Below, piece after piece: positions 12,801 through 23,883 of a stretch of DNA of 40,774 nucleotides. Each line of letters opens with the position of its first letter. The first letter of the stretch is position 1. Position numbers and translations under genes: made by a program. Under the pieces are notes generated by a model that saw only the letters and a list, made by a program, of their open reading frames with translations, made no database searches and was not told where the DNA came from. This stretch comes from Desulfobacterales bacterium (GTDB lineage: Bacteria > Desulfobacterota > Desulfobacteria > Desulfobacterales > JALSRD01): positions 1 to 40,774 of the forward strand of contig JALSRD010000085.1 of assembly GCA_026984935.1 (NCBI GenBank), in the 5' to 3' direction.

Positions 12801-13071
12801 AGCCCACGCCCACCCGGCTGCCCACCGCGATGGCAGACCAGTCGCTGCGCGCCCATCTCGCAAATTGCGGCACCCGGCTTGACGTAATTTGTCACCTCTC
12901 AGACCTTCGCCTGTCATAATCTGCGCACCACCTCCCTAACTTACCGTGTTCACATATCTTCACAATTCAAATGGCCTGGCTCGCTTCTTGCAATCAGCCA
13001 CTGTTAAAAAGCTGCCGGACGTCGGCAGTCAGTTCCGTTCTTCGCGTCACCGCAGAAAGGGCCGGGCCGCC

Positions 13072-16991: not shown

Positions 16992-17073
16992 CCCGGCGGA
17001 ATCCCTGCGCCGGCGCCCCACGTCGAGCCGCCGTAAGCTATCAGGGTTCAAGTGCCCTGCCCATTGGATGCCC

Positions 17074-17469
17074 TTACTGCCGGGAGGTGGAGAGGCCTCG
17101 CTGCAACCGTTGCATTAATCGATCCAATTTCTTTTGCTGGTCTTCATTCAGATAGGGCTTCATTTTCCCGGACGCCTGAAGAAAAACTTTCTCAAACTGG
17201 GGCCGCAGGTGTGCCCGTAGTATCCGGACCCGCTTTACGGCCGTATCGACAAAAGGATGGATATGCCTTCTCTGCTCACTGCTGAGATCCAGCGCGCGGC
17301 TTAAGTTGGCCATAACCAGCTGTACGGCGACTTGGTCGTTTCCGCGGATCAAGGCGTTGATCTTGCTGCGTATCTGATGCCGGACATACAGACTGGTGCC
17401 CACCGTGCCGACAACCACGCCGGAAATAAAGATAACCAAAAGGGCCGCATATACCCTGATTTTGTTCAT
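17074..17469 (-). CDS. Spy/CpxP-like periplasmic protein with N-terminal anchor
   Basis: A 131-residue protein. One N-terminal TM helix (about 3-24) anchors a helical periplasmic domain. The domain carries LDLSSEQRRHIHPFVD and YLNEDQQKKLDRLM, both resembling the LTxxQ-type repeats of Spy/CpxP and heavy-metal sensor proteins. It is the last gene of the sigma/anti-sigma run, 21 nt past the anti-sigma gene on the same strand. Start at ATG 17469, after GGGG at 4 nt; an ATG at 17478 lacks a ribosome site. A role as chaperone or stress sensor near an ECF system is inferred from family context. Confidence 0.7.
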   Translation of the reverse strand: MNKIRVYAALLVIFISGVVVGTVGTSLYVRHQIRSKINALIRGNDQVAVQLVMANLSRALDLSSEQRRHIHPFVDTAVKRVRILRAHLRPQFEKVFLQASGKMKPYLNEDQQKKLDRLMQRLQRGLSTSRQ

Positions 17470-17490
17470 GGTCCCCATTCAGCCAACATT

Positions 17491-17823
17491 TTAAAGCGCA
17501 GCGAGCACTAAAGACGCCAACCCAAACGGGTCGTTTAACATGAGCCTGGACAGATCCGTGTCAAGGCTTCCGCCGGAGAGCCATGCAAAAGCCATAAGCG
17601 CCAGGGCAGCGGCGCAGCCCGCGCCTGCAAAACGGCAAACCACCGGCATGGGAAACCATCGCTCGAATCGCATGAACCGCTTTTTCTCCATGCAGCCGAG
17701 CTGATGAATATCCTGCATGAGTGTCTGGCGCCAGCCGGGAGGCAAATCCGGAAGTTGACGTCTGCGATAGGCACCCCCCAGCAATCTTTCCAGCCGGTCG
17801 ATTTTTTGCCTTGGGTTATGCAT
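17491..17823 (-). CDS. Putative membrane anti-sigma factor
   Basis: A 110-residue protein translated from an ATG that overlaps the sigma factor stop by 8 nt (ATGCATAA, 17816-17823), a coupling typical of sigma/anti-sigma pairs. Residues 1-55 are basic and helical (IDRLERLLGGAYRRRQLPDLPPGWRQTLMQDIHQL), then one TM segment (about 72-88, AGAGCAAALALMAFAWL). There is no H-x3-C-x2-C zinc anti-sigma motif, so assignment rests on position and topology. AGGGG lies about 5 nt before the start. It could instead be an unrelated membrane protein cotranscribed with the sigma factor. Confidence 0.6.
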   Translation of the reverse strand: MHNPRQKIDRLERLLGGAYRRRQLPDLPPGWRQTLMQDIHQLGCMEKKRFMRFERWFPMPVVCRFAGAGCAAALALMAFAWLSGGSLDTDLSRLMLNDPFGLASLVLAAL

Positions 17824-18412
17824 TGAGGCCCCTGTTTTCCGGGAATAAAGATGCCAGTATGTTGCGCAGCTTGCGGCGTGCGCGGAAACTGCGGATTTTA
17901 ACATTCGCGGCGGACATGTCCATAAGCTGCGCGGTCTCCGCCACGGAACGCTCTTCAAAATACATCAGGATCATCAGCATGCGGTCTCCGGCCGATAGTT
18001 TGTTCAACGCCCAATCGAGCAACTCCCTGGTTTCAAATTGTTCCGCCATATCCGGCAAGTCGGCCAGGGTGCTGTCCTGATGGTAGCGATGCAACCAATC
18101 CTGGGTGTTTTCCGACAGCGCACTGATGGGAGTTTCGCAGTTGCGGTAGTGGGCACGCCAGAAATCGTGGCAGGCCCTTGTGGCAATCCCGGCCAGCCAG
18201 TGCCGCAAGGGCCGTCTGCCGTCGTATCCGGATAGCGATTTGTACGCTCTTAAAAATACGTCATGGGTTACTTCCGCCGCATTTTCGGGCGGGACTCTAC
18301 GCGCTACCTGTTGATGTATAGCGTCTTCATGTCTTTTGAGCAACACTTCGAATGAGCGGGTGTGCCCATTGAGAATTCGTTCGATAACAACTGCATCTTC
18401 GTCTCTTTCCAT
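17816..18412 (-). CDS. ECF (RpoE-like) RNA polymerase sigma factor
   Basis: A 198-residue extracytoplasmic-function sigma factor. Region 2 includes AAEVTHDVFLRAYKSL (about 46-61), the DNA-melting stretch YDGRRPLRHWLAGIATRACHDFWR. Region 4 includes LSAGDRMLMILMYFEERSVAETAQLMDMSAANVKIRSFRARRKLR, a helix-turn-helix for the -35 element. There is no C-terminal extension. The chosen ATG at 18412 follows 22 nt after the stop of the repeat protein, so it likely lies in one transcript with it. An in-frame TTG at 18421 is also possible; neither has a clear ribosome site. The next gene overlaps its stop. Confidence 0.9.
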   Translation of the reverse strand: MERDEDAVVIERILNGHTRSFEVLLKRHEDAIHQQVARRVPPENAAEVTHDVFLRAYKSLSGYDGRRPLRHWLAGIATRACHDFWRAHYRNCETPISALSENTQDWLHRYHQDSTLADLPDMAEQFETRELLDWALNKLSAGDRMLMILMYFEERSVAETAQLMDMSAANVKIRSFRARRKLRNILASLFPENRGLNA

Positions 18413-18434
18413 TATCGGCAAACGGCCGCATCAA

Positions 18435-18880
18435 TTAGGGGGTCACCGTCGTGGTCGACGTTCGGGTGCCGCTGCGTCCGGCCGGACCGGTGGTTGTCAC
18501 GCTGCGCTGGTAACTCTCAGAATTAAACCCCCGCTGCACGGCCCGCGAGGCGGTATTACCGCCGGGCCCGGTAACGGTGGTCGTCCGGCCGGCGCTCCCC
18601 GCATAAGAGGGATAGACTGCGTATTGATATCGGCGATGCCGTTTCCGGTAATGGTTGCCGTACTGCCATGGGACGTGGAATAGCCGGCCGGGCCGGTGCT
18701 GGTGACACTGCGCTGGTAGCCCGCGGAGGTGAAACCCCGCTGAACAGAACGTGTACAAGTTCTGCCACGGGCACCGGTTACGGAAACCGTCCGCCCCCGC
18801 GCCTGGACGGTGTTGAAAGCGCCGAAAACCGCGACCATCATCAATGCTGCAACCACCGCAGTCATTTCCTTGACTGTCAT
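18435..18880 (-). pseudogene. Exported two-repeat Ser/Thr-rich protein with a frameshift between repeats
   Basis: Translation from ATG 18880 (AGGAG 8 nt upstream) gives a signal peptide ending VQA-RG and a first 50-residue repeat (18793-18644), then runs off into unrelated sequence and stops at 18497. One frame over, a second 50-residue repeat (18587-18438) ends at a TAA at 18435. The repeats align without gaps with about 30 of 50 identities (shared VQRGF, YQRSVT and TGPAG). The 56-nt linker (18588-18643) is not a multiple of three, so the period is 206 nt; restoring one base would make one 148-residue protein. A four-G run in the linker is a likely slip site. It may be a true frameshift, a sequencing error, or a recoded gene. 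The family is unknown to me. Confidence 0.72.
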
Positions 18881-18986
18881 CTTTTTGCTCCTTTGGTATT
18901 GAGTGGCGGAAAAACGTCTCTGCAACAATAGTCGTTGCGTAAAGCCAACCGGTTACAAAAAAATCCGGGGCCGCTTCTCAAGTTAT

Positions 18987-19012
18987 AGCAATATCAGTGC
19001 CAATCCGAAAAA
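18987..19012 (-). promoter_or_regulatory. Sigma-54-type promoter, proximal copy
   Basis: On the minus strand the site reads TTGGCAC-TGATA-TTGCT: GG at 19001/19000 and GC at 18989/18988, exactly the 12-bp register of the -24/-12 consensus TGGCACN5TTGC. Transcription would start near 18976, about 96 nt before ATG 18880 of the repeat protein. It is one of two near-identical 26-bp copies. Confidence 0.75.
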
Positions 19013-19016
19013 TTAA

Positions 19017-19042
19017 AGCAATATTAGTGCCAATCCGAAAAA
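19017..19042 (-). promoter_or_regulatory. Sigma-54-type promoter, distal copy
   Basis: This is the second copy of the 26-bp direct repeat, 30 bp upstream of the first and differing at one base. Read on the minus strand: TTGGCAC-TAATA-TTGCT, with GG at 19031/19030 and GC at 19019/19018. Spacing matches the sigma-54 consensus. Transcription would start near 19006. Confidence 0.72.
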
Positions 19043-19047
19043 GCCTG

Positions 19048-19090
19048 CCGTCACAGTGCCACGCTCCGTCACATAAAGAAGCTTTCTTTA
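19048..19090. promoter_or_regulatory. Candidate activator-binding region: CCGTCAC repeats and 17-bp palindrome
   Basis: Just upstream of the two sigma-54 sites lie two CCGTCAC repeats (19048-19054 and 19066-19072, 18 bp apart). Next to them is a perfect inverted repeat TAAAGAA-GCT-TTCTTTA (19074-19090). The palindrome lies roughly 70-110 bp upstream of the predicted start sites, where sigma-54 enhancer-binding proteins commonly bind. No such activator gene is seen in this window. Confidence 0.35.
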
Positions 19091-19180
19091 TCGTCCCTAT
19101 CGATTGTTTCAACGCATATTAACTGCCTGTTGCGCTAAAAAGAATGTCCAATTTGCCAAAACACCATGACGGCGGCCAGG

Positions 19181-19657
19181 CTATTCGGCATGCAGCGTAA
19201 TCCACTCCTTGAGCAGGGAGCGACGAGCCCTGTCCCGCCGCGTAATCGCTTGATTCAGCAAATTCTGCCCGTTGTCGAGAATGCGCTGTTGGTCAGGCGT
19301 CAGGATTTGGCGCAGTTGCGCAATCAAATCCGTAAACAGCATGGTCAGCTGTTCCCCGGCAGCGGCCACCCGCCGGTAAGCGGATAATACAACCTCCCGA
19401 TCCGGGTGAGGCGCCCCCAAAGCCTTTCGCAAATCGGCACGGGCGGCCTGCAGTGCGCTGATCACCGGTTGAAAATCGGTCTGGTGCTGCTTCAGCACCC
19501 GGGCAATTTCATGCTTTTGGGCATCGGTAAACTGCATACGAATCAGTGTTTTCAGCAGGGTACCCCCCAGGGTCATTGGCGCTGTCTCAAATGCCGCACC
19601 ATAAGCATTTCCCGCAATCATCATGATTACCAGTACGGCCGGAATCAACTTTCTCAT
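19181..19657 (-). CDS. Spy/CpxP-like periplasmic protein
   Basis: A 158-residue exported protein. The signal peptide is MRKLIPAVLVIMMIAGNAYG with cleavage before AAF. The mature part is helical with MQFTDAQKHEIARVLKQH and QILTPDQQRILDNG, both LTxxQ-type segments of the Spy/CpxP family; a basic stretch QAITRRDRARRSLLKEW ends it. AAAGGAG stands 8 nt before the ATG. It is the first gene on this strand before the sigma-54 region and appears separate from the operon below it, with a 300-nt gap. Together with the protein at 17074-17469 it makes two Spy/CpxP-like genes flanking the ECF pair. Confidence 0.78.
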   Translation of the reverse strand: MRKLIPAVLVIMMIAGNAYGAAFETAPMTLGGTLLKTLIRMQFTDAQKHEIARVLKQHQTDFQPVISALQAARADLRKALGAPHPDREVVLSAYRRVAAAGEQLTMLFTDLIAQLRQILTPDQQRILDNGQNLLNQAITRRDRARRSLLKEWITLHAE

Positions 19658-19806
19658 CCTACATCTCCTTTCTTTACAGGGTTTATTGTCCCGCTTCTAT
19701 GGAGAATGTCGTCGGCCACCGGCAGGCGGTTACAGAAAACTGCACACCTGTCTAAAACAGGCCATGCAAAAGAAGCTGAAGGCCTCATCCGCCGGGCGAA
19801 TTTATT

Positions 19807-20073
19807 TTTTACCTGAATTTTGCAAGCGTTGCGTTTGCCGCCTATACAAGGCGCAGGGCATGCAGCTGTAGTATACTACCGCAAATGCCCTGCAACACAG
19901 TCGATGCGGTAAAATCGGCGCTCCCGCAGGGCAGACAATTTTGAAGTCAAAATGGAAGGTTTCCGAACATACCAATGACGCTGAAAATTATCGCGCTGCA
20001 TCCATTGACAACCATGAGATAACATTACAATTTTATAAGTTTTCAAAATTGTCTGTGCAAGATTCAGGTTTTA
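19807..20073. mobile_element. MITE-like element with inverted ends and 5-bp target duplication
   Basis: Most of the 508-nt gap between 19657 and 20166 is this element. Ends CCTGAATTTTGCA (19812-19824) and TGCAAGATTCAGG (20056-20068) are inverted repeats with one mismatch in 13. TTTTA stands directly outside both ends (19807-19811 and 20069-20073), as a 5-bp target-site duplication. Inside lie paired palindromes: GCAGGGCAT/ATGCCCTGC (19853-19861, 19885-19893), GTAGTATACTAC (19868-19879), another GCAGGGCA (19926-19933), and CAGACAATTTTGAA (19932-19945) paired with TTCAAAATTGTCTG (20042-20055), which abuts the right end. It has no transposase. The remainder of the gap holds only CCTGTACAGG (20074-20083) and AT-rich sequence. 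Confidence 0.55.
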
Positions 20074-20165
20074 CCTGTACAGGCCGATAAACGATACAAT
20101 AGGCGATCGATTCGTTTCTGGTACCAAATGTTTTTAGAAGCAACTATTGACGGGGGGATCAACCC

Positions 20166-20849
20166 ATGGCAATCAAGTTGTGGTCAAACAGGCCCGTACC
20201 CGGAGCCAGGAAGGCCAGCAAAGAAATGCGTCCACATTATGCGCACTCCGAAATACCGGCCGGGATTTCAATTACGCGGTCGAAAGACCGGCTTATCCTG
20301 CGCAGGAGGTGGCTATGCTTGCGGATGTGGATCCATGTTTTAGGGGGAACGTTTTTTATCGCCGGGACAGTGGTGGTGTTTGCCGTCAGAAATCAGCAAC
20401 CACAGGCACAGGCCACAGGTATTTCGTATTTATTCCTTATCGCGGCCATGGGTGTGTTTTATTATGTCATGGCCATTTTACTGAACAAAACGCGCATAAC
20501 CGTCGACCGCAGTACCATCCGCATCAAGCATTATCCTCTTTTCTGGCCGGGAAATCACCAGATGGATGTGCGCCTGATCACCCAGTTTTACGTCAAACAA
20601 ACGCTTGTCAGGAGGGGTCGGGGACATTCAATTCTGCTCTGCGGAGAAGGTTATCAATATGAAACCAGTTGGTTTGAGCTGCGAGCACGTGAGAAAGTCA
20701 GAGGAGATGTGAAAATATTAGACAAACTGCCGTCCCGGAAACAGGCGCTGCTTATCGAGCATGAAATAGAAAATTTCCTGGGCATTCAAAACCAACCTGT
20801 TTACGGTGAAGTCGATCCCGATGCCAAAACCAAATTCACTTCCTCCTGA
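20166..20849 (+). CDS. Membrane protein with two TM segments and possible PH-like domain
   Basis: A 227-residue protein. Residues 1-50 are basic and cytosolic-looking, followed by two TM segments (about 52-75, MWIHVLGGTFFIAGTVVVFAV, and 87-106, YLFLIAAMGVFYYVMAILL). After them comes a beta-rich stretch beginning NKTRITVDRSTIRIKHYPL and LITQFYVKQ, a pattern typical of bacterial PH-like membrane proteins, and a C-terminal helix LPSRKQALLIEHEIENFLG. A GGGGGG site is about 8 nt before ATG 20166. The MITE-like element lies directly upstream, so its insertion could influence expression. No function is assignable. Confidence 0.72.
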   Translation: MAIKLWSNRPVPGARKASKEMRPHYAHSEIPAGISITRSKDRLILRRRWLCLRMWIHVLGGTFFIAGTVVVFAVRNQQPQAQATGISYLFLIAAMGVFYYVMAILLNKTRITVDRSTIRIKHYPLFWPGNHQMDVRLITQFYVKQTLVRRGRGHSILLCGEGYQYETSWFELRAREKVRGDVKILDKLPSRKQALLIEHEIENFLGIQNQPVYGEVDPDAKTKFTSS

Positions 20850-20892
20850 AGCACTTGCAAATTCGGCAGTGCAGTGCTGAACAAAGAGGGGC

Positions 20893-21738
20893 TCAGGCCC
20901 CCGACACGGCCAGTGAATCCTCGATCTTGATCTGCAGCTCGGCCAGATCCACGTCGGACAACCCCAGGATGGCGTCTTCCTCGGTGGCCATCAGCATCAG
21001 GGACGGGTCCGCATCCAGTCCTATTTCCATTTTATTGCAGGCCTTGTTGGCCAGGCGCACCATAACCAAGACGTGGTTTTTGGCATCGAATTGCTCTTCG
21101 TGGTGCTGAACCACCACTTCGCGGTACAGCTGCGGCAGGTTCCAAGCGGTGAGCAGCTGATGCCCCTTGGATGGATGCAGGTCGTGCATGACCTGATTGA
21201 TGAACTCCGTCGTCGGGGGCTTGTCGATCTCCCCTGTTTCACACAAATGATCGATAACGGTCAGAATGAGCAGTTTTCCCATATCGTGCAGCAGGCCTGC
21301 GAAAAAGGCCTCCTGGGCCAGTTCTTTGAGGTTCAGACGCTTGGCCAGCCAGAGGGACCCCAGCGCGCAGCCCACCGAGTGTCGCCAGAGGGTATCGAGC
21401 AACTCTTTAAAAAGCGGGTCCCGTGAGGCAAAGTTGGTTTTCTGGGTGGCCAGCAGCACGATGTTGGCAATCTCCTTGGTCCCCAGGCGCTTGATGGCAT
21501 TATCCACGGTGGACACCTCGGAAAGCCCGCGGTAAAAAGCCGAATTGGCGATGCGCAGCACATGGCCGGTCAGGGCCTGATCCTGCATGATCAGCTTGGC
21601 CAGGTGCCGGATATCCGGATCCTGTTTCGAAATTTCCTGTTGCACCTGGTGTGCACAGGCGTTGAACACCGGCATGGGCACCTGGCCGCTGTCCAGCTGT
21701 GCGTTGACCATATCGATAAACGTCAGCACTTCAGGCAT
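20893..21738 (-). CDS. HDOD-domain protein
   Basis: A 281-residue single HDOD domain, an HD-related output module without phosphohydrolase activity. It shows LIMQDQALTGHVLRIANSAFYRG (about 48-70), TVDNAIKRLGTKEIANIVLL, LWRHSVGCALGSLWLA and AFFAGLLHDMGKLLIL (about 143-160), which retains an HD pair. Its ATG (21736-21738) lies 1 nt after the stop of the GspE/PilB-type gene, with GGGAG inside that gene's end, so the two are coupled. HDOD proteins often act in signalling, motility and pili; the pairing with a pilus-type ATPase is consistent. Confidence 0.85.
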   Translation of the reverse strand: MPEVLTFIDMVNAQLDSGQVPMPVFNACAHQVQQEISKQDPDIRHLAKLIMQDQALTGHVLRIANSAFYRGLSEVSTVDNAIKRLGTKEIANIVLLATQKTNFASRDPLFKELLDTLWRHSVGCALGSLWLAKRLNLKELAQEAFFAGLLHDMGKLLILTVIDHLCETGEIDKPPTTEFINQVMHDLHPSKGHQLLTAWNLPQLYREVVVQHHEEQFDAKNHVLVMVRLANKACNKMEIGLDADPSLMLMATEEDAILGLSDVDLAELQIKIEDSLAVSGA

Positions 21739-21739
21739 A

Positions 21740-23623
21740 TCACACTCCCAGGATATGGCGCAGTTCGTTCAATGGCCGCGGCCGGTTCAGTTTTGGCAGG
21801 CAGCGCAGTACTTCCTCCGGTGTGGTGATGCCCATAGCCGCCTTGACGGCGCCGTCTTCCAGCAGGGTGACCAGACCGGTGGATTCGATACTGATTTTGC
21901 GAATGTCGTAACTCGTCTTGCGCTCAAGGATGGCGTTGCGAACCCTTTCGTCCAGAATCAGCAGTTCAAAAACGCCCACCCGGCCGCGGTACCCCGTGTA
22001 GTTGCAGTGCTGGCACCCTTTGGCTTTGCGAAACTGCCAGCCGATGCAGTCTTTGGGATCGTAGCCCATGCGCTGCATCAGGGCGGGATCCGGTTTGCAG
22101 GCTTCGGCGCAGTGCAAACAGACCTTGCGCAACAGGCGCTGCGCCAGCACGCTGATGACGGTGGAGGAAATCATGAAGGCCTCGATCTCCATGTTCAGCA
22201 GCCGGACGAGGCCGCCGATGCTGTCCTCGGTATGAAAAGTGGTGAGAACCTTGTGACCTGTCAAGGCCGCCTGCACGGCGACCTCGGCCGAGTAGTTGTC
22301 GCGGATCTCGCCGATGACGATGACGTCCGGGTCCTGGCGCACAATGTGACGTAGCGTTTCTTCAAAGGTCAGGTTGATTTTGGGATTGATCGAGCACTGC
22401 GAAATGCCGTCGATGATGTACTCCACGGGCTCTTCGGCCGTAATGATGCTGATCTGGGGGTTCTTGATATGGTTGATACAGCTGTAGATGGTCGTGGTCT
22501 TACCCGACCCGGTGGGCCCGGTGACCAGCATGACACCGCTGGGCTGCAGCAGGGCCTCTTCCACAAAGCGGTCCCGCATGCGTGATGACATGCCGAGTTC
22601 GTCCAGCTGGATCAGTGTCCCCTTGCGGTTGAGCAGCCGCAGCACGATTTTCTCGCCGTAAACCGTTACGTAGAAAGAAACCCGCAGGTCCAGTTCATGG
22701 CCCTGATGGTCGAAAAACAGGCGCCCACCCTGGTGCCGGCGCTTTTCCACGATGTCGGCGCCGCACATTACCTTGATCCGGCTGGTGAGTGTGGGGGCGA
22801 TGTCCTGCGGCAGATCTTTATGCAAAACGAGGATGCCGTCCCGGCGAAAACGGATGCGCAGCCGGTCTTCCAGCGGTTCGATGTGGATGTCGCTGGCTTC
22901 GTCCTCGATGGCGGCGACGATGATCGCATTGGCCAGGCCCACAACGGAGTCATCGTTCAATTGTATTTCATGCTCGGTTTTGGCATACCGCAGGAACTGG
23001 TCGAGCACTCTCCGGATGGATTTTTCGTGGGCAATGGCCCGGACCATATCCGGACCGAAAAACCGCGTGGCGGCCTCTAGCGCTTCATCGTCTAAGGGAT
23101 CCGCAAAAGCGACCAGGACGCCTTCGCCGGTCCGGCGGATGGGGATGAAACAGTGTTTTTCATACCACTTGGCCGGAGCCCTGCGAAACACCTCCGGCTC
23201 AATTTCGTCATACTCGGGAGTAATATGGGCGAACCCCAGCTGCATGGAGAGCACCTGGATGATGTCGCTCTCATCGACCAGTCGTTTGGCGACCAGAATC
23301 TGGCCGATCTTGCGCCGGTTTTTTTCTTCCTGCTGGATCTTGACGGCCAGTTCCAGATCCTCCGGGGAAATGTACCCCAGCTCTGCCAGCAGCTCGCCGA
23401 CGGGGAGGTTGGTTGCGTGGGAGCGCACACTTTCCTGTATCTGCGCATCGGTGACACATTTCAGATCCTTCAGAACCCCCAGCAACGATTTATGCGCTTC
23501 GAGCTTGGACTGAATCCGCCGCGCATACTGGAGTTTCCGGTCGCTGATCACCCCGTCGGCAAGCAGGTAAGATACGATCGGTCCATATGCGCAAGACGGT
23601 TCTGCAGTTGTTGCAGGTTGCAT
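21740..23623 (-). CDS. GspE/PilB-type secretion or type IV pilus assembly ATPase
   Basis: A 627-residue ATPase. Residues about 60-230 are an MshEN-type N-terminal region (GELLAELGYISPEDLELAV, IGQILVAKRLV), followed by a GspE N2 region. The motor has GPTGSGKTTT (Walker A, near residue 370), ITAEEPVEYI (Asp box), VIVIGEIRD (Walker B) and TTFHTEDS (His box). Two CxxC pairs (CLHC near 500 and CQHC near 536) form the zinc site typical of GspE/PilB. MshEN domains in this family can bind c-di-GMP. The start is ATG 23623 with GGGAGGA 6 nt upstream; an upstream in-frame Met adds an atypical 18 residues. No other pilus or secretion genes are in the window. Confidence 0.88.
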   Translation of the reverse strand: MQPATTAEPSCAYGPIVSYLLADGVISDRKLQYARRIQSKLEAHKSLLGVLKDLKCVTDAQIQESVRSHATNLPVGELLAELGYISPEDLELAVKIQQEEKNRRKIGQILVAKRLVDESDIIQVLSMQLGFAHITPEYDEIEPEVFRRAPAKWYEKHCFIPIRRTGEGVLVAFADPLDDEALEAATRFFGPDMVRAIAHEKSIRRVLDQFLRYAKTEHEIQLNDDSVVGLANAIIVAAIEDEASDIHIEPLEDRLRIRFRRDGILVLHKDLPQDIAPTLTSRIKVMCGADIVEKRRHQGGRLFFDHQGHELDLRVSFYVTVYGEKIVLRLLNRKGTLIQLDELGMSSRMRDRFVEEALLQPSGVMLVTGPTGSGKTTTIYSCINHIKNPQISIITAEEPVEYIIDGISQCSINPKINLTFEETLRHIVRQDPDVIVIGEIRDNYSAEVAVQAALTGHKVLTTFHTEDSIGGLVRLLNMEIEAFMISSTVISVLAQRLLRKVCLHCAEACKPDPALMQRMGYDPKDCIGWQFRKAKGCQHCNYTGYRGRVGVFELLILDERVRNAILERKTSYDIRKISIESTGLVTLLEDGAVKAAMGITTPEEVLRCLPKLNRPRPLNELRHILGV

Positions 23624-23883
23624 CTTTTCCTCCCGGGCATGTATGGCACATGCAGATCGCGGCATACAGGTCTTCACGAAAATTTCCGTTCAAACGGCAC
23701 AATCGGCTTTCAGGCGGCACCCGTGGCACCTGTCCGGCCGCAGCGAAACGAGCATCACCGGCCACTGCACGGCCATCCTGTATCTTTTTCGGCCGAACGG
23801 CCGCCCGACTTTAGTGAAGAGATGCCATTTGCATGGATGGCGAGTCCGGAGAACCGGGCCAAAGGGGCCCTGCAGAAATGTTT

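Follow-up and report, generated by a model that had tools for sequence, protein, structure and literature searches.

Two closely similar copies of a sequence that fits the −24/−12 element of σ54 stand ahead of an ECF σ operon in a Desulfobacterales genome; the question they raise is whether they are promoters and, if so, what they would add to control of the operon. The window, that is, the whole stretch of DNA analyzed, is contig C85 (40,774 nucleotides) of a 3.9-Mb genome. The boxes lie in the 300-nt gap between the Spy/Metal_resist gene and the repeat-protein gene, on the minus strand and facing the ATG of the repeat-protein gene at position 18880, as originally predicted (Table 1). Also in agreement with that prediction, both are exact TGGCAC-N5-TTGC matches in the same orientation and 30 bp apart, and the 26-bp unit proposed to carry them (18987-19012 and 19017-19042) differs between copies at one base. 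The duplication is in fact wider than this unit: it covers 30 bp with three differences, none of which falls on the 10 fixed bases of the box. The ECF gene itself begins ∼570 nt downstream of the boxes, with the repeat gene and an ECF-type promoter in between.

Table 1. Features of the candidate promoter region and the ECF operon, in window coordinates.
Feature	Position	Strand	Remarks
σ54 box 1 (distal)	19018-19032	-	TGGCACTAATATTGC; predicted start ~19006; exact pattern match, flanks fit consensus
σ54 box 2 (proximal)	18988-19002	-	TGGCACTGATATTGC; predicted start ~18976; exact pattern match, flanks fit consensus
30-bp tandem duplication carrying boxes 1 and 2	18980-19039	-	2 copies (18980-19009 / 19010-19039), 90% identity, from repeat search
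Candidate degenerate third box	19047-19061	-	TGGCACTGTGACGGC; GG and GC retained; 29 bp upstream of box 1
Palindrome, candidate activator site	19073-19091	.	ATAAAGAA-AGC-TTCTTTAT; ~76 and ~106 bp upstream of predicted starts
Predicted ECF autopromoter TGTAAC-N17-CGAC(TA), before repeat protein	18931-18957	-	motif common to most orthologous operons
Predicted ECF autopromoter TGTAAC-N17-CGAC, before Spy-like gene	19708-19734	-	many orthologs have the site at this position
Spy/CpxP-like periplasmic protein, Metal_resist family	19181-19657	-	PF13801, E 4.9e-11; L081 ortholog 34% identity
Secreted repeat protein gene	18435-18880	-	two repeats, 57% identical, different frames
ECF σ factor	17816-18421	-	σ70 regions 2 and 4; orthologs 34-49% identical
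Putative anti-σ factor, 110 aa	17491-17823	-	one hydrophobic segment; overlaps ECF stop codon; assigned by position and reading frame
Membrane-anchored Spy/CnrX-like protein	17074-17478	-	weak LTXXQ/Metal_resist matches below cut-off

In each copy, GG and GC dinucleotides 10 bp apart occur in the TGGCAC-N5-TTGC context of a σ54 promoter, and the sequence with its flanks matches 16 of the 17 informative positions of the consensus mrNrYTGGCACG-N4-TTGCWNNw (quoted in PMC2725144). No other exact match occurs in the 40.8-kb window, and when the 300-nt gap was shuffled 4,000 times with dinucleotide composition preserved, one exact box arose in 2 shuffles and two boxes in none. Because the boxes are copies of each other, the pair amounts to one coincidence plus one duplication, not to two independent matches. 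The degenerate third box upstream has a weak position weight matrix score (8.4, rank 39 in the window) and may be a chance match.

The genome is equipped to use such promoters: it encodes RpoN (PF04552, E = 1.5e-62) and enhancer-binding proteins (34 PF00158 matches, ∼29 of them strong), although none of the genes in the neighborhood of the operon was recognized as a dedicated activator gene. By pattern counts and crude gene calls, on which all our genome-wide statistics are based, exact σ54 boxes number 23, versus 6 for a reversed control pattern; of the other 21, roughly half lie between genes, and seven are followed by a start codon 33 to 286 nt downstream. With rpoN, activators, and an excess of boxes in the genome, a box that matches exactly, lies between genes, and points toward a gene is likelier to be real than not. 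Thus, judging from sequence quality, orientation, rpoN, the enhancer-binding proteins, and the genome-wide excess, σ54 promoters appear to be the likeliest reading of the two boxes, as had been proposed. Elsewhere in the window, a σ54-like box at 12977-12992 on the plus strand (TGGCTCGCTTCTTGCA) lies upstream of a small zinc-ribbon-like gene; its counterpart in the congener (L051, 747-762; TGGCTTGTTTCTTGCA) is retained amid diverged sequence, and by this comparison it is, as a candidate promoter, better conserved than the tandem boxes at 18988-19032.

The operon that the boxes face resembles, in gene order, CnrYXH-type systems, which comprise an ECF σ, a small membrane anti-σ, and a CnrX-like periplasmic sensor. 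Here, an ECF σ with regions 2 and 4 is followed by a short putative anti-σ and a membrane-anchored Metal_resist/LTXXQ-like protein, with a Metal_resist protein encoded upstream. Unlike in CnrYXH, profile matches for the anti-σ and the sensor are weak or absent, but position and membrane segment fit; profile searches gave no convincing family match for the putative anti-σ, and the names of both genes rest on position and weak similarity. The two genes occupy the same order and position in orthologous operons. The repeat protein matched nothing in Pfam or NCBIfam; since its two repeats are in different frames, the gene is either frameshifted or misassembled, and its homolog in L081, a locus of another genome (G437), is intact with three repeats. 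A frameshifted first downstream gene could mean that the region is decaying.

What the original prediction overlooked is a conserved ECF-type promoter between the boxes and the ECF gene, of the kind expected upstream of an autoregulated σ operon. Upstream of 77 ECF orthologs, TGTAAC-N14..19-CG occurs 82 times on the coding strand versus 19 times on the opposite strand; most of these motifs have a 17-nt spacer and read CGACTA or CGACTT, and they precede Spy or the ECF gene. Exact TGTAAC-N17-CGAC sites in the genome number only two (10 for the reversed pattern), the one before the Spy-like gene and the one before the repeat gene. The shared motif, and the fact that each of the only two exact sites precedes a gene of the operon, argue that the operon is self-transcribed: its own ECF σ probably transcribes it from two points, one ahead of Spy and the other ahead of the repeat gene. 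With an autopromoter closer to the gene than the boxes are, σ54 would be at most an additional input.

The arrangement for a cascade from σ54 to an ECF σ, as highlighted in the original prediction, is present here, but such a cascade is not unprecedented. In Pseudomonas syringae, the ECF σ gene hrpL is driven by σ54 with HrpRS, and ECF polymerase at a neighboring promoter represses it by occluding control sites (PMC5263251). As at hrpL, the window has a σ54-type promoter sequence upstream of an ECF σ gene; with an ECF-type promoter nearby, interaction between the two polymerases is possible. The window differs in having two tandem boxes, a codirectional ECF promoter that is apparently an autopromoter, and a gene set of Spy/CnrX-like proteins and a putative anti-σ; furthermore, control of hrpL was established experimentally, whereas the wiring here is predicted from sequence. 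In the Borrelia RpoN-RpoS cascade, σ54 drives another alternative σ as well (PMC3037356); there the target is RpoS, not an ECF σ. The tandem boxes before the ECF operon look like a plausible lineage-specific variant of known wiring.

Proximity of the two promoter types also bears on the best of the alternatives, that σ54 polymerase at the boxes acts mainly as a brake, with a closed complex on box 2 blocking the ECF autopromoter until it is cleared by an activator or by competition. Box 2 ends 30 bp upstream of the ECF site, and its predicted start lies 19 bp before the ECF −35 element (18952-18957), so that a closed complex there would abut, and probably overlap, the −35 and block the autopromoter. 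Such a brake would be consistent with the stable closed complexes that σ54 polymerase makes, with the suggestion that RpoN may bind tightly and inhibit when activator is insufficient (PMC2725144), and with the interference between ECF and σ54 polymerases via neighboring sites at hrpL (PMC5263251). However, boxes that are near consensus and face a gene usually serve as productive promoters, and transcription from the autopromoter before Spy could circumvent the block. We consider a brake improbable, and less likely than an activator-dependent σ54 input to an autoregulated ECF operon.

Conservation was the test set for the boxes, one that would support a σ54 promoter without strictly defining it, and here they did not fare well: upstream regions of 77 orthologous operons showed no excess of σ54 signals that would reflect conserved GG/GC (6 with a score of at least 11, versus 7 in the control), nor did the signal exceed the control in the 260-bp stretches that precede 60 ortholog autopromoters. 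The orthologs were found by alignment search; querying the genome contigs with the single ECF protein found none. A search of 58 relatives for the box pair, allowing 2 mismatches, found only the window, and no exact box lies near repeat-family genes located away from recognizable ECF genes (G503 and G633). The lack of a σ54 signal in orthologs would also suit a reading in which a different regulator of the neighboring ECF promoter binds the 30-bp direct repeats and the σ54 match is incidental; the repeats sit just upstream of that promoter, and their spacing is about three helical turns. Against this, a full match with fitting flanks is improbable by chance, and exact boxes are in excess in the genome. 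We rate this reading below the brake and unlikely.

L081 is the only syntenic relative found, with Spy, repeat, ECF, anti-σ, and CnrX-like genes in that order, and its 84-nt Spy-repeat gap has neither a σ54 box nor an internal ECF site. With no box signal in the orthologs or in L081, the tandem-box arrangement is lineage specific at best; from the one syntenic relative compared, the boxes and the ECF site before the repeat gene look like a lineage-specific addition. In congener G001, in whose genome we found no ECF ortholog, the gene for an AMP-binding ligase is directly followed by one for a phosphopantetheinyl transferase; adjacency of these genes implies that the window segment at ∼17.0 to 23.9 kb is absent there. 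That segment (∼17000-23880) holds the ECF cassette together with an HDOD gene and a GspE-like ATPase gene. Least probable of the readings considered is that the boxes are a nonfunctional relic, left by duplication of a chance or decayed promoter within a decaying lineage-specific gap, while the two ECF promoters alone serve the operon: the boxes are absent from L081, the first downstream gene is frameshifted relative to L081, and the cassette is missing at the corresponding congener position, but the three differences between the copies leave all ten fixed bases intact, an argument tempered by our own arithmetic that three changes would miss the fixed bases by chance ∼28% of the time.

Duplicated −24/−12 elements were expected to be rare, and few turned up, but the window is not their sole example: at least two others exist in the order. 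A relaxed tandem pattern occurred in 8 of 389 genomes of the order, versus 2 for the control; three of the eight (the window, G245, and G023) look like duplicated σ54 cores, and the rest resemble repeats or coding sequence. G245 and G023 (loci L167 and L169) have near-identical direct tandem boxes like those of the window, but 21 and 22 bp apart, respectively, rather than 30 bp; the former pair precedes a response-regulator gene, and the contig end truncates the target of the latter. Thus, duplicated boxes are rare but recurrent in the order. Our search of the literature on tandem σ54 promoters returned nothing useful, so the rarity given here refers to the genomes searched.

σ54 polymerase would need an activator, and one candidate binding site is the palindrome upstream of the boxes. 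It is the only inverted repeat of the region with arms of at least 6 bp, and no second copy with 2 or fewer mismatches occurs in the genome; an equally good one arose in 66 of 1,000 shuffles (6.6%), which is not significant. Its distance from the boxes would suit an activator site but is suggestive only. A direct repeat, TGTGACGG, at 19035-19071 on the minus strand has two copies 18 bp apart, with the palindrome on one side and box 1 on the other. Integration host factor (IHF) sites were set aside, as only two-mismatch matches were found. Among other signals, the stability of leader RNA structure did not exceed that of shuffles, an Rfam search of the window gave no matches, a σ70 promoter and terminator scan stayed close to the shuffled level, and no terminator-like site was found on the minus strand from Spy to the repeat gene.

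On balance, we lean toward the view that the tandem boxes are two real σ54 promoter cores that arose by a 30-bp microduplication and were added in this lineage before a self-driving ECF operon. From what the sequence contains (boxes, duplication, ECF sites, gene order, rpoN, and activators in the genome), we infer the use of σ54, its activator, and the direction of its effect as follows. An enhancer-binding protein, perhaps at the palindrome, would activate σ54 RNA polymerase at either box but not at both simultaneously, since two polymerases do not fit side by side within 30 bp. The transcript would continue via the repeat gene into the ECF, anti-σ, and CnrX/Spy-like genes and would enlarge the pool of ECF σ held by the anti-σ. 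Envelope stress would then free the ECF σ, leading to amplification from its own two promoters. A bolder proposal, which we regard as doubtful, is that twin σ54 promoters, arisen by microduplication next to a codirectional ECF autopromoter, let unlike polymerases compete or alternate on ∼100 bp, gating a self-amplifying envelope-stress operon.

If the boxes work, a self-amplifying ECF operon that reads the state of the envelope would come under a second gate, that of an activator-dependent σ, tying envelope stress to whatever signal the enhancer-binding protein senses, and the locus would offer a small natural example of in situ duplication of a promoter core. More secure, and of wider reach, is the autopromoter motif TGTAAC-N17-CGAC, which is shared across a widespread group of Spy/CnrX-linked ECF σs in Desulfobacterota and Nitrospirae (L081-L160).
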